From: Parvularcula maris
GTDB taxonomy: Bacteria; Pseudomonadota; Alphaproteobacteria; Caulobacterales; Parvularculaceae
DNA length: 33,684 nt
Direction: 5' to 3'
Assembly (NCBI RefSeq): GCF_024505085.1
Contig: NZ_JANIBC010000013.1
Coordinates: 7,501-41,184 of the forward strand
Under the pieces are notes generated by a model. The model searched no databases. It was not told the origin of the DNA and was given only the letters and a program-made list of their open reading frames with translations. Within the stretch, counting starts at the first letter, position 1, and each line of letters starts with the position of its first letter. A program made the position numbers and the translations under genes. Below, one piece after another: positions 11,806-30,727 of this stretch.

Positions 11806-13137
11806 CTACTCGTCGCCGGGCTCGGCCATCAACTCGTCTTTGCTGACGGTCTTCTCGGTGATCTCGGCCTTCTCGATGAGGTGGTCGACCACCTTCTCCT
11901 CGAAGAGCGGTGCACGGAACTGGGCGAGGAGTTCCGGGCGCTCCTGGATCATCTGGAAGAGCTGCTGGGGCTGCATGCCCATCTGCATGGCCTGGGCCTG
12001 GATCGAGCGGGTCAGCTCGTCCTGGGGCACCTGGACGTCGGCGGCCTTGCCGATCTCTGCCAGGAGAAGCCCCAGGCGCACACGGCGCTCGGCGATCTTC
12101 TCGTAGTCGGCCCTCAGTTCGTCTTCGGACTTGTCCTTGTCCTCGTCGTCGAGCTCGGTCGCCTGGACCTGCTGCCAGATCTGCTCGAACTCGGCTTTGA
12201 CCATGCCGGGGGGCAGGTCGAAATCGTGGTTCTCGTCCAGAACATCGAGCAGCTCGCGCTTGGTGTGAAGGCGCGACTGCGACTTGTAGCGGTCCTGGAT
12301 CATCTCGCGGACGCGGGTCTTGAGGCCTTCGAGGTCGTCAAATCCGATGGTCTTGGCGAACTCGTCGTCGATCTCCGTGTCCTGCGCTTCTTGCAGGTTC
12401 TTCGCGGTGACGTCGAACTCGGCCTCCTTGCCGGCGAGGTGAGCTGCGGCATAGTCCTCAGGGAAGGTCACCTTGATGGTGCGCTCCTCCTCCTTCTTGA
12501 TGCCGAGGAGCTGCTCTTCGAAGCCGGGGATGAACTGGTTCGAGCCGAGATCGAGGTTCACGTCCTCACCCGAGCCGCCCTCGAACTCCTCCCCGTCGGC
12601 GCGGCCGACAAAGTCGATGACCAGACGGTGGCCTTCCTTGGCGACCCGGTTCTTGGGCAGGTCCTTATAGGTCTTGTTCTGGTCGGCGAGCTTCTGGACC
12701 TCCTCGTCCACCTCCGCCTCGTCGATCTCGGCGGTCATCCGGGTGAGCTTGAGCTCGTCGATCCCCTTGGGCTCGATCTCCGGCAGGACCTCCACATGCA
12801 TGTGGTATTCGAGGTCGGCCTTGCCCTTGACGACCTCGTCGATGAGGCCGTCCTTCATGTGGGGGTGGGGCTGCATGGCCGGGGTGATGTTGTTGTCAGA
12901 CAGCGCCTTGGTCTGGGCGGCGGTCATCTCCTCCTGGATCAGCTCGCCCATGAGGTTCGGGCCGTAGAGCTTCTTGAGGAAGCTGGTCGGCGCCTTGCCG
13001 GGGCGGAAGCCTTTGAGGTGGACCTGAGGCTTGATCTCTTCGAGCTTCGCGTCGAGCTTCTCGCTCAGATAGGTCTGCGAGATGACGACCTGATACTCGC
13101 GGCTGAGACCCTCGTTCTTGGTTTCCGTGACTTGCAT
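11806..13137 (-). CDS. tig: Trigger factor
   Basis: 443 residues, typical length. The ribosome-binding N-terminal domain (1-112) has the GFRPGKAP loop at 43-50 that docks on L23 at the tunnel exit. A PPIase FKBP-like domain follows (about 165-245; GHRLVIDFVGRADGEEFEGG, GSNQFIPGFEEQLLG). The C-terminal helical arms end in an acidic tail. It is an ATP-independent chaperone for nascent chains. In many bacteria clpP-clpX-lon come next; here they are not adjacent, and the gene stands alone with its own terminator. The upstream 240 bp contain a G-rich stretch but no promoter I could assign with confidence. Confidence 0.96.
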   Translation of the reverse strand: MQVTETKNEGLSREYQVVISQTYLSEKLDAKLEEIKPQVHLKGFRPGKAPTSFLKKLYGPNLMGELIQEEMTAAQTKALSDNNITPAMQPHPHMKDGLIDEVVKGKADLEYHMHVEVLPEIEPKGIDELKLTRMTAEIDEAEVDEEVQKLADQNKTYKDLPKNRVAKEGHRLVIDFVGRADGEEFEGGSGEDVNLDLGSNQFIPGFEEQLLGIKKEEERTIKVTFPEDYAAAHLAGKEAEFDVTAKNLQEAQDTEIDDEFAKTIGFDDLEGLKTRVREMIQDRYKSQSRLHTKRELLDVLDENHDFDLPPGMVKAEFEQIWQQVQATELDDEDKDKSEDELRADYEKIAERRVRLGLLLAEIGKAADVQVPQDELTRSIQAQAMQMGMQPQQLFQMIQERPELLAQFRAPLFEEKVVDHLIEKAEITEKTVSKDELMAEPGDE

Positions 13138-25977: not shown

Positions 25978-26637
25978 ATGAAAACCGCCGTCATCGTCTT
26001 CCCCGCCTCGAACTGCGACCGCGACGCCCAGGTCGCCCTGCGCCAGGTCACCGGACAGGAGCCGCACATGGTCTGGCATGCCGAGAGCGAGCTGCCCGAA
26101 GGCCTCGACCTCGTGGTGCTGCCCGGCGGCTTCGCCCATGGCGACTATTTGCGCACCGGCGCCATCGCGGCTCGCGCGAAAATCATGGATGCGGTGAAAA
26201 AGCGCGCCGAATCGGGCGGCGCTACTTTAGGCATTTGCAACGGCTTCCAGATCCTATGCGAGGCGGGCCTCCTGCCCGGCGCCCTCATGTCCAACACCAA
26301 CCAGCACTTCATCAGCCGCGAGGCGACGCTGCGTGTCGGCGAGACGGATAGTCCCTATACGAAGGGATACGCGGCGGGCGACTACACCCGCTTCCCCGTC
26401 GCCCACCACGACGGCAACTACCAGGCCTCGGACGAGGACCTCGACCGCCTCGAAGGCGAAGGCCGCGTGGCCTTCCGCTATGTCGAGCCGATCAACGGCT
26501 CGGCCCGCTCCATCGCAGGCATCACCTCAGCCGACGGAAGAACCTTGGGGCTGATGCCCCACCCGGAACGCGACATGGCCGAGGGCGGCCGTGGCAGGGT
26601 GTTCTTTGAGCGGATGGTCGAGGGGCTGGCGGCTTGA
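25978..26637 (+). CDS. purQ: Phosphoribosylformylglycinamidine synthase, glutaminase subunit PurQ
   Basis: 219 residues, a class I glutamine amidotransferase. The nucleophile is C87 in [10 protein letters not shown], and H195/E197 in MPHPERD complete the triad. [15 protein letters not shown] forms the oxyanion region. It makes ammonia from glutamine and passes it to PurL, with PurS, in step four of purine synthesis. No Shine-Dalgarno precedes the ATG. purS, usually just upstream of purQ, is not seen; the WrbA-like gene and repeats are there instead. purL follows only after 1.25 kb, with three small genes between. Confidence 0.96.
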
Positions 26638-26655
26638 AACGACTGGCCTACAAAC

Positions 26656-27030
26656 ATGATTTCTTCGACCGGTGATCCATTCCAAGACTTCTTCCTCGCA
26701 GTCCTAGTTCTCACCTATCTTGGCGGTGCGTTTTACTGGGTTATTCACTATTCTATAGTTCTATTTGCGGTGTTTGTTCCTCAAGCGCGTCAGCGTGCTA
26801 TCCGGGCGGCGCTCGCTCCCCCTACCTTCGCCCTGCTCGTTTGGTCAGTAGGTTACGTCACCGAACTGCAGAGGTCAGTATACGCAGGTGACCGCTTCTG
26901 GCGGGAGCGGTACGGGGAAGAGATATTAGTTGGGTTGTTATTGATGTTCATAGTTCTCGTGGTTGGCTCAGCTTTGCTCGCACTTGTGACTGCTGTTTGT
27001 TCAGAGAGGCGAAAGCATGTCGTTGATTGA
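26656..27030 (+). CDS. Small three-helix membrane protein, no family recognised
   Basis: 124 residues. Membrane helices lie at about 11-42 (a long hydrophobic run with YWVIHYSIVLFAVFV), 50-66 and 90-112. A charged loop with GDRFWRERYGEEI lies between the last two. Codon use is less GC-rich than the neighbours (many TTT, ATT, GTT and TTA codons), which suggests acquired DNA. It starts 18 nt after purQ without a Shine-Dalgarno. It may belong to the same insertion as the toxin-antitoxin pair that follows, or be a stand-alone gene. No function can be assigned. Confidence 0.55.
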   Translation: MISSTGDPFQDFFLAVLVLTYLGGAFYWVIHYSIVLFAVFVPQARQRAIRAALAPPTFALLVWSVGYVTELQRSVYAGDRFWRERYGEEILVGLLLMFIVLVVGSALLALVTAVCSERRKHVVD

Positions 27031-27097
27031 GACGTTCACCGTGACCGCGTCGTAGGAAATGGTTTGAGAGAGCGAAACTTTCACACATACTGGTACG

Positions 27098-27295
27098 ATG
27101 ACCAGACCCTACCGCCACGTCGCCGACATGACCGCCGAGGAGATCGAAGAGGCGATCAAGGACGCCGGTCCTGAGGCGCAAGCGGCGCTTCATGCGAAGG
27201 GGCTGCCTTATGTGACGGAGCGGGACGGTGAAACCATTGCCATCTACCCTGATGGCAGCACGAAGATTTTGAGAAGCCTTGACGATCTGCCGTGA
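27098..27295 (+). CDS. Antitoxin-like partner of the zeta-type toxin
   Basis: 65 residues: a helical acidic start (MTAEEIEEAIKDAGPEAQAALHAKG), then strands YVTERDGETIAIYPDGSTKIL. The arrangement fits small antitoxins encoded directly upstream of chromosomal zeta-like kinases in proteobacteria. The stop overlaps the next start (GTGA), so the two are co-translated, as is usual for toxin-antitoxin pairs. No DNA-binding motif is visible, so autoregulation by this protein is not evident. There is no Shine-Dalgarno at the ATG. The call rests mainly on its position and size. Confidence 0.65.
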   Translation: MTRPYRHVADMTAEEIEEAIKDAGPEAQAALHAKGLPYVTERDGETIAIYPDGSTKILRSLDDLP

Positions 27296-27870
27296 GGCCG
27301 CCCTCGTTCACGGTCATCGCTAGCCCCAATGGCCCCGGAAAGTCGACGCTGGTGGCGTCGCTGGAAGCAGAAGGTCGGTTTTTCGGACCCTTCATCAATC
27401 CCGATGACATTCGGCGTGCTTTAGGACCGGACGGATCCGATTTGCAGGCGGGCCGATACGCCCTCTACGAGAGCAGGCGGTTTATCGACGCCAGAACCAC
27501 CTTCGCACGGGAGACAACGCTCACCAGCAGAGAAATCCTGCGAACCATGAGGGCTGCGAAAAGTGCCTGTTTCCTCATCCGGATGTTCTTTGTCGGCGCC
27601 TCTTCAGTTGTCACCAGCGGCCAGCGCGTCAGGCAACGCGCAGCTAGCGGCGGACACGACATTCCAGTGGACGTGCAGATGCGGCGGTTCGACAAAAGCT
27701 TCACCAACGCAGTCCCAGCAGCTTCCATGGCTGACGAAGCCGTCTTCTACGAAAACATCGACCACCACCGCATGATCGCCCGCTACGAACACGCCGAACC
27801 CGCCTTCCTCGCCGATCCCCTTCCTGCCTGGTTCCTGCCCCTCCGCGAGGCTCTTGCCACCGGGGGCTGA
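27292..27870 (+). CDS. Zeta-toxin-like P-loop kinase
   Basis: 192 residues. Walker A is SPNGPGKST (11-19), with Pro15 in place of the usual Ala and Ser11 in place of Gly. The substrate region [10 protein letters not shown] (36-44), FARETTL (71-77) and the later [14 protein letters not shown] and [10 protein letters not shown] match the chromosomal zeta-toxin/AAA group. In epsilon-zeta systems zeta phosphorylates UDP-N-acetylglucosamine and blocks wall synthesis. Chromosomal relatives of this short type are less studied, so substrate is open. The changed Walker A and an unusual [13 protein letters not shown] (where VGxxSPExxxxRV is common) hint at a decaying or altered protein. It ends 20 nt before purL. 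Confidence 0.75.
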
Positions 27871-27890
27871 GGCGGGCATTCCCCCGGGCT

Positions 27891-30608
27891 ATGACCCACT
27901 CCGCCGAGACCATTGCCGAACACGGGCTGACGCCTGACGAGTATGACCGCTTCGTGAGCTCCATCGGGCGGGAGCCGACGCTGCTCGAGCTCGGCATCGT
28001 CTCGGTCATGTGGTCGGAGCACTGCTCCTACAAATCCTCCCGGCGGCATCTGAAGACCCTGCCGACCACTGGCGAGCGCGTCATCCACGGCCCCGGCGAG
28101 AACGCGGGCGTGGTCGATATCGGCGACGGCCAGGCGGTCATCTTCAAGATGGAGTCCCACAACCACCCGAGCTTTATCGAGCCGTATCAGGGCGCAGCCA
28201 CAGGCGTTGGCGGCATCATGCGCGATGTCTTCACCATGGGCGCAAGGCCGGTGGCGCTTTTGAACGCGCTGCGCTTCGGCGCCATTGACCATCCGAAGAC
28301 GAAGCATCTTCTGTCCGGCGTGGTGGCAGGGATCGGTGGCTACGGCAACTGCATGGGCGTGCCGACGGTGGCTGGCGAGACAGGCTTCGATCCTCGCTAC
28401 AACGGCAACATCCTCGTCAACGCCATGTGTGTGGGTATTGCGGACACGGACAAAATCTTCCTGTCAGTTGCCAAGGGCGCGGGCAACCCCGTCGTCTATG
28501 TCGGCTCCAAGACGGGCCGCGACGGCATCCATGGCGCCACCATGGCCTCCGCCGAGTTCGACGAGGCGAGCGAGGAGAAGCGCCCCACCGTCCAGGTCGG
28601 CGACCCTTTCATGGAGAAGCTGCTGCTCGAAGCCTGCCTTGAGCTGATGGCCGAGGACGCCATCCTCGCCATTCAGGACATGGGCGCGGCTGGCCTTACC
28701 TCCTCCTCCGTCGAGATGGCCTCGGGCGGCGTGGCGGCGGGCGAAGGCGGCATCCACTTGAAGCTCGACGACGTTCCTCAGCGTGAGGACGGCATGACCG
28801 CTTATGAGATGATGCTGTCTGAGAGCCAGGAGCGTATGCTGATGGTTCTCAAACCAGGCGCCGAGGACAAGGCACGTGCCATCTTCGAGAAGTGGGAAGT
28901 GGACTTCGCCGTCATCGGCCACACCACCGCCATCGGCAACCTGGTCATCGAACATAAAGGCGAGGTCGAGTGCGACCTGCCCCTCGGCCCCCTGGCCGAC
29001 GAGGCACCGAACTACGACCGTCCGCAGGCGGAGCTGGAGCCCCCCGCCCCCCTCGAAGACCCCGTGCGCAGCTACCGCGAGGTAGAGGTACGCCTCACCA
29101 CCGGTGAGAAACCCATCGCCGAGATCGCCGAGGCGCTGGTCGGCGAGACCCTGGCGGAGAAAGACGGCGTGGATGCGGTGGGCGTCAGCCTGACCGAGCT
29201 CGAGGCGCGTATCTACGCCCGGCTGACCGAGAATGGCGCCTCCGTGGGCGAGGCTTTCGTCACTGCGGCGAAGAACCTGGAGAGCGCGGGCGTCGTTGGG
29301 GGCGCTTCCACTGAAGAAGCAACCTCCGAAATCAACCTCGCAAACCAGCCCGGCGGCGACCCGCTCACCCTGGCGCTCCGCAAGCTGATGGCCTCGCCCG
29401 AACTCTGCTCGCGCCGCTGGATCACCCAGCAGTACGACCACACGGTCATGGCCGACACACTACAGCAGGGCGGCGACGCAGGCATCGTCCGCGTACACGG
29501 AACGAACAAGGCCCTGGCGGTCACCGCCGACTGCACGCCGCGCTACTGCGCCATGCACCCTGTCGAGGGCGGCAGGCAGGCCGTGGCCGAGGCGTGCCGC
29601 AACCTCTCCGCTGTCGGTGCGGAACCCATCGCCATCACCAACTGTCTCAATTTCGGCAACCCCGAGAAGCCCGAGATCATGGCGGGTTTCGTAGGCTGCA
29701 TCAGGGGGCTGGGCGAAGCCTCCGAAGCGCTCGGCGCACCCGTGGTTTCCGGTAACGTATCTCTCTACAACGAAACCGACGGTTCACCCATTCCGCACAC
29801 CCCCGCCATCGGTGCCGTGGGCCTTCTGCAGGACGCAGACAAACGCGCCTCCATGGCGGGCGCTGAGAGTGGCGATGCGCTCGTCTCCATCGGTGTGACC
29901 CGAGGTCATCTGGGTCAGTCCCTCTACCTTCGCACCCTGTTCGGCATCGAAGAAGGCGCTCCGCCGCCCGTGGACCTCAAGGCCGAGGCCGAAACCGGCG
30001 CCTTTATCCGCCGCGCCATCGCCGATGGCCGGGTGAGCGCCGTACACGATGTGTCCGACGGCGGTCTTCTGGTCGCTGCCGCCGAGATGTGCCTTGCGGG
30101 CGGCATGGGCCTCGCCCTCACCACCTCCGTCGGCTCACGCCGCGCCGCCTATTGGTTCGGCGAGGATCAGGCCCGCTATCTCTGCGCCGTACCCGCCGAA
30201 GCGGCTGACAATTTCGTCCTGAAAGCCGCCATGGCAGGGCTCCAGGCCAGCCGCCTGGGCATCTTCGGCGGTGAGCAGATCATCCTCGACGGCGACGACC
30301 GTATCGACGTCACCGACCTCGCCGCTGCCCACGAGGCCACCATCCCCGACCTGTTCCGCCTAGAGGAGGACCGCCTGATGCCGATGAAAGAATCTGAGAT
30401 CAAAGAGATGGTCCTCGCCGCCATGCCCGACGCCGAGATCGAGATCGAGGACCTGGCTGGCGACGGCGATCACTACCGGGCACGGATCGTCTCCTCCGCC
30501 TTCCAAGGCCTCAACCGCGTGCAGCAGCACCAGCTCGTCTACAGAGCATTAGGCGGTAAGATGGGCGATACGCTTCATGCGCTGGCCTTGGAGACGGTGG
30601 CGAAGTAG
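27891..30608 (+). CDS. purL: PurL (FGAM synthase large subunit) fused to a C-terminal BolA domain
   Basis: 905 residues, against about 735 for usual small PurL. PurL features: [14 protein letters not shown] with H44, [23 protein letters not shown], then second-half blocks [30 protein letters not shown] and [16 protein letters not shown]. Two oddities stand out. Residues of about 393-490 are an extra segment between the two halves. Residues 830-905 are a complete BolA domain ([44 protein letters not shown] with H880). The junction keeps AGGAGG (30364-30369) 8 nt before an in-frame ATG (30378), so a free 76-residue BolA could also be made. A stop (TAG 30361) lies one frame off. purL-bolA adjacency is normal in alphaproteobacteria; the fusion is not. 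Confidence 0.92.
30378..30608 (+). other. bolA: Possible separate BolA start inside purL
   Basis: Within the purL frame, ATG 30378 (or 30384) has a near-perfect Shine-Dalgarno, AGAGGAGGA, at 30362-30370 with 8-nt spacing. Translation from here gives a normal-sized BolA protein (76 residues, [12 protein letters not shown] start). BolA-family proteins bind monothiol glutaredoxins and take part in iron-sulfur handling and stress control. If one base upstream of 30361 was deleted, PurL would end at TAG and this would be an ordinary separate gene. Confidence 0.55.
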
Positions 30609-30611
30609 GCT

Positions 30612-30727
30612 GCCCCCTCAGCCTGCCGGCAGCTCCCCCACTCGTGGGGGAGCGAAGAAGCGACTAAGCGGTTCTCATGCTTCTCTCCCCCATCTCATGG
30701 GGGAGGTACCCGTAGGGCGGAGGGGGC
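30612..30727. repeat. 116-bp structured repeat, copy 1
   Basis: Begins GCCCCCTCAGCCTGCCGGC and ends GGGCGGAGGGGGC, with the ends inverted to each other. Inside are two hairpins of GCTCCCCC/GGGGGAGC and CTCCCCCA/TGGGGGAG type. Copy 2 is at 33541-33656. It lies 4 nt after the purL stop. Confidence 0.8.

Follow-up and report, generated by a model that had tools for sequence, protein, structure and literature searches.

A family-wide PurL–BolA fusion in the Parvularculaceae with a conserved putative internal start for BolA

Introduction

In plants, SufE1 is a SufE–BolA fusion; we know of no internal start within it. As in the protein described here, BolA is attached to a protein with a different role, but the partner in SufE1 belongs to Fe-S assembly and the host is a eukaryotic organelle. 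Long and short products from one frame and one mRNA are made by bacterial ClpB, IF2 and CheA through an internal in-frame start. The short forms of these proteins lack an N-terminal piece of one protein, whereas the short form considered here would correspond to a formerly separate gene. Small-type PurL of the PurLQS system (FGAM synthase II), with structures from T. thermophilus (3viu) and T. maritima (3d54), has the same PurL fold as the protein described here, but these two PurLs are shorter (703 and 583 residues).

The closest relative of the BolA part in the PDB is S. meliloti YrbA (5nfk), with which it shares histidines of the same numbers, 32 and 67. According to the S. meliloti study, His32 and His67 are metal ligand positions and YrbA heterodimerises with the monothiol glutaredoxin SmGrx2 (PMC7538681). 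S. meliloti YrbA is a free protein, unlike the fusion, and the main text of that study uses none of the words purL, operon and fusion. Its introduction mentions natural Grx–BolA chimeras in Methylococcales (PMC7538681). These are likewise bacterial BolA fusions, but the partner there is the binding partner of BolA, whereas here it is a purine enzyme.

Results

The analysed window is a 33,684-nt stretch of Parvularcula maris DNA, in which a single 905-amino-acid open frame (27891–30608, + strand) encodes PurL followed by a BolA domain of the YrbA/IbaG type. Its parts and surroundings are as follows.

25978..26637, + strand: purQ, glutaminase subunit (PF13507, 112.1 bits)
27891..30377, + strand: PurL part, residues 1–829 with the linker included (NF002290, TIGR01736; AlphaFold model resembling T. 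thermophilus PurL 3viu)
29052..29351, + strand: Parvularculaceae-specific insert separating the PurL halves (beta-alpha-beta-beta-alpha-beta in the prediction; pLDDT 85 when modelled alone)
30360..30377, + strand: final stretch of the PurL–BolA linker (pLDDT below 50 at residues 826–830; length and sequence vary across Parvularculaceae)
30361..30363, + strand: off-frame TAG, taken as chance, without counterpart in the nearest relatives L032–L034
30362..30370, + strand: internal Shine-Dalgarno-like AGAGGAGGA (−11.8 kcal/mol when paired with the 16S tail)
30378..30608, + strand: BolA of the YrbA/IbaG type, a complete 76-residue frame from the internal ATG (PF01722; best PDB match 5nfk)
30471..30473, + strand: codon for His32 in the BolA part, at the place of the [H/C] loop (His in 53/53 Parvularculaceae sequences)
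30576..30578, + strand: codon for His67 in the BolA part, at the place of the C-terminal ligand (numbering as in S. meliloti YrbA, PMC7538681)

The PurL part scored 982.5 bits against the NF002290 profile (cut-off 648) and 901.3 bits against TIGR01736 (cut-off 525.75), which places it among the small-type PurLs, and aligned PurL columns are conserved. PF01722 matched residues 857–904 of the whole protein with 49.3 bits (cut-off 25.7) and the BolA domain alone with 55 bits against the gathering score of 25.7. An AlphaFold model of the whole fusion, for which 22 sequences, six of them with BolA, served as input, had a mean pLDDT of 84.5 and a pTM of 0.81, and its pLDDT dipped at residues 826–830, i.e. 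in the PurL–BolA linker. The modelled BolA part consists of a helix (834–844), two strands (849–854 and 861–868), a second helix (876–886) and a further strand (897–904). Foldseek matched the model to T. thermophilus PurL 3viu with a TM-score of 0.93 by target. Separate PurQ and PurS subunit genes exist in the P. maris genome; purS (G000:C2:205176-205409) lies on a different contig from purQ and purL (25978–30608), and in one relative (G022) it lies about 0.7 kb upstream of purL. Past the fusion, at 30630–30710, the GC-rich inverted stretches ctcccccac...gtgggggag and ctcccccat...atgggggag were seen by eye, and these are perhaps a dispersed repeat or a terminator.

Junctions were searched for in 100 relatives and then in 299 genomes of the order. 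The Parvularculaceae sample comprised 62 genomes, and the junction was readable in 53 (52 relatives and P. maris itself). The original prediction was that PurL reads without a stop into BolA, and the results showed one uninterrupted frame at all 53 junctions. In two of these 53 the BolA part is incomplete: that of L082 is cut by the contig end, and in L081 the sequence is N beyond residue 42. Outside the 53 are G059, whose contig ends inside BolA and which is in frame up to that point; G050, G299 and G025, represented by upstream pieces only; G300; and G013, G024, G032 and G040, in which PurL matches were no better than trace. G013 (98% complete, 140 contigs, the sole genome of its genus in the sample) and G032 (98% complete, 470 contigs) are the two with no PurL found at 98% completeness, and a YrbA-type BolA was not found in them either, just a weak match to another BolA; the absence of PurL may reflect an assembly gap or a loss of purine synthesis.

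The TAG at 30361–30363 does lie one frame off, as first noted, and a one-base insertion error near 30357–30360 had been offered as an explanation of the junction. The nearest relatives (G004, G009 and G001; 80–85% protein identity to the P. maris fusion) share the frame and have an almost identical linker, but lack the off-frame TAG. Where P. maris has a peptide of 11 residues, L032, L033 and L034 also have one of 11, so that there is no extra base in the P. maris junction; the insertion error is ruled out. A stop at the TAG position in close relatives had been named as an observation that would speak against a fusion, and none of the 53 Parvularculaceae has one.

Related BolA sequences were also found in named loci, of which the best 80 of 553 candidates were read. 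Five were fused, namely L114, L116, L117 and L124 from Parvularculaceae and L115, titled Alphaproteobacteria; none of the other 75 was, and these have at most 106 open codons ahead of BolA. A PurL match lay upstream of bolA in 71 loci and in the same frame in 63 of the 71, a count that takes in the five fused loci as well as one whose PurL is 3.3 kb distant, and that comes from a search favouring in-frame neighbours. Across 385 genomes sampled from the class, none of the 64 junction-spanning matches listed outside Parvularculaceae was fused, each having at least one stop. Inspection of large open frames around bolA in G315, G394, G264, G248, G559, G217 and G079 showed none of them to be a PurL–BolA fusion. 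Outside the family, purL and bolA are often adjacent, separate genes. Sister-family loci show purL, a stop, a few codons and bolA, all in one frame, and judging from the sequences this arrangement is likely the precursor state. In a FastTree phylogeny of 44 fused and 30 unfused PurL sequences, the fused ones formed one clade (support 0.972) with none of the 30 unfused tips inside it. Beside this clade stood 14 tips from the other families of the order and from loci titled Phenylobacterium, Caulobacteraceae, Hellea, Aquidulcibacter and Robiginitomaculum. The topology fits a single fusion event followed by vertical descent.

A Shine-Dalgarno (SD) sequence had been noted 8 nt before an in-frame ATG; the distance between AGAGGAGGA and the ATG at 30378 is in fact 7 nt. 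The BolA part starts with ATG in all 53 Parvularculaceae sequences. An SD-like match of at least six bases was present at 29 of the 53 internal starts compared with 0 of 1298 other in-frame ATGs, and one of at least five bases at 41/53 compared with 55/1298. Duplex energies were calculated with the alphaproteobacterial 16S tail. The mean over the 53 sequences was −8.18 kcal/mol, compared with −2.38 at the 1298 other in-frame ATGs and −2.91 at 13135 further codon positions. When these codons were recoded synonymously, the mean was −5.16 with an sd of 0.36, and the strongest among 300 replicates reached −6.19; this null is conservative, since the Lys-Glu pair encoded at the SD may have been retained on account of the RNA. 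The excess over the synonymous null persisted in 18 representatives of less than 80% identity (Wilcoxon P = 4e-5). Owing to the relatedness of the 53 genes, the pooled statistic overstates their independence. When the genes were taken singly, 48 of 53 lay in the stronger half of their own null and four below 5%, P. maris (4%) being one of the four. In three of the 53 the SD was weaker than the synonymous mean: L032, which is one of the nearest relatives of P. maris, L035, and L076, in which it was almost absent (−0.4).

The distance from the SD core to the ATG was 6–10 nt in 52 of 53 sequences, despite the variation in linker length. At 75 free bolA starts elsewhere the mean SD energy was −6.6, weaker on average than that of the internal SD in the fused genes. 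The RNA from −25 to +20 around the internal ATG had a mean folding energy of −7.4 kcal/mol, compared with −12.4 for other in-frame ATGs and −12.3 for random codons, and was less structured than the median random codon in 47 of 50 genes; the sole composition control here was the G+C content, which is slightly lower around the internal ATG (0.597 vs 0.615). SD sequences are reported to be rarer than expected within coding regions of highly expressed bacterial genes (PMC5100845), and a conserved SD inside a coding region is therefore unusual. When pooled, these comparisons indicate that the internal start is a conserved signal beyond synonymous codon choice.

The PurL part also contains about 85–95 extra residues between its two halves, within residues 388–487 in P. 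maris. This insert was present in 47 of the 53 Parvularculaceae sequences, the remaining six being cut off upstream, and in none of 16 aligned unfused alphaproteobacterial PurLs, which also lack the BolA tail. Its fold was predicted with good confidence, in a ferredoxin-like layout, as in PurS, ACT and PII domains. Comparison with Pfam gave nothing convincing (best E 0.0012, below its cut-off), and a sequence search of the PDB gave no match. Foldseek gave weak matches, the best to a designed protein (E 6.4e-4), followed by PII-like, ACT-type and other small alpha-beta folds. A PurS domain was considered and rejected, as hhalign gave a probability of 0.2% (five of ten PurS loci in the alignment) and purS exists separately. 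The insert is possibly a regulatory domain.

Among PDB entries, the fused BolA domain matched S. meliloti YrbA 5nfk best (E 1.5e-23), compared with 1.8e-5 for E. coli BolA 2dhm; the SufE-like protein 4pui was also among its matches. No YrbA-type BolA other than this fused copy was found in the P. maris genome. The one further BolA match (G000:C1:573262) is closer to the BolA1 type, with E-values of 1.3e-14 for BOLA1, 9.9e-14 for BolA 2dhm and 2.3e-4 for YrbA 5nfk. Numbered from the internal Met, His32 is present in 53/53 sequences and His67 in all 51 that are readable at that position. It had been noted that no glutaredoxin gene lies downstream, and this agrees with our finding that the next open reading frame with a Pfam match, a metallo-beta-lactamase fold below the gathering score, sits on the opposite strand. 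The single P. maris monothiol glutaredoxin that passes the TIGR00365 cut-off is encoded on a different contig (G000:C5:90308-90598); a protein over this cut-off occurs in 55 of the 62 Parvularculaceae genomes, P. maris included. In at least 13 relatives (e.g. G020, G012, G043, G026 and G034) the glutaredoxin gene follows the fusion at a distance of about 1–9 kb and has the same orientation.

Discussion

Of the readings first proposed for this locus, a real fusion was borne out throughout the readable Parvularculaceae, and one gene with two products is now the best supported, the internal SD and ATG being kept beyond what the protein requires. We consider it probable that a family-wide fusion has retained the old bolA start and that one gene gives rise to a 95-kDa PurL–BolA and a free 8.4-kDa BolA. 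In an ancestor of the Parvularculaceae, purL and a neighbouring in-frame bolA would have lost the intervening stop. The gene would now yield the 95-kDa PurL with its BolA domain on a short flexible tail, and a second set of ribosomes would start at the SD and ATG at 30362–30380 to make the free 8.4-kDa protein. Whether tethered or free, BolA would pair through His32 and His67 with a monothiol glutaredoxin encoded elsewhere. The simplest account of the kept internal start is that the cell needs YrbA-type BolA free, the tethered form being tolerated or used. An objection is that initiation at the internal site could be blocked by ribosomes on their way through purL.

The off-frame TAG at 30361 might suggest that a sequencing or assembly error joined two genes. 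Such an artefact predicts relatives without the fused frame, an expectation that failed, as all 53 junctions are fused, including those in the single-contig genomes G003, G005, G022, G033 and G034; we regard an error as extraordinarily improbable and, from the sequences, the PurL–BolA fusion as real. It is also conceivable, though unlikely, that only the fusion is made; the SD-like stretch would then be left over from the former bolA start, or would make the ribosome pause and so give PurL time to fold ahead of BolA translation. The weak SD of L032, L035 and L076 and the small number of singly significant genes (4/53) would agree with this. However, a remnant should have decayed at the 59–70% identity that separates P. 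maris from its more distant relatives, whereas in the pooled data the signal is stronger than under the synonymous null and stands at a maintained distance from an invariant ATG, in weakly structured RNA; moreover, a pause site does not need the ATG.

Separate PurL and BolA could also arise if the full-length chain were cut in the linker, which is variable and of low confidence in the model. Against this, a conserved motif for cutting was not seen in the linker by eye, and the conserved SD and ATG would be left unexplained, so that cleavage appears very unlikely. Internal initiation on a fused gene remains our preferred reading. A more tentative extension, which we hold to be doubtful, is that the fusion turns PurL into an enzyme responsive to iron or Fe-S. 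The tethered BolA would dock the monothiol glutaredoxin, together with its [2Fe-2S] cluster, onto the FGAM synthase complex, and purine synthesis would thereby follow iron status while the internal start supplies free BolA to the other parts of the cell; the PurL insert would then perhaps be a further regulatory module.

Among the listed matches from non-subscription papers, no title or abstract opening concerned a PurL–BolA protein; protein databases may list this architecture already. To our knowledge, there is no accepted reason for a purine gene to stand beside an iron-sulfur regulator. In Alphaproteobacteria purL and bolA often lie side by side, and their family-wide fusion makes the reason for this pairing directly testable. 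It raises the question of what the tether contributes beyond free BolA, a free copy apparently being kept by way of the internal start. With the second start codon kept in the fusion and the unfused state present in sister families, the Parvularculaceae offer a clean comparative case.
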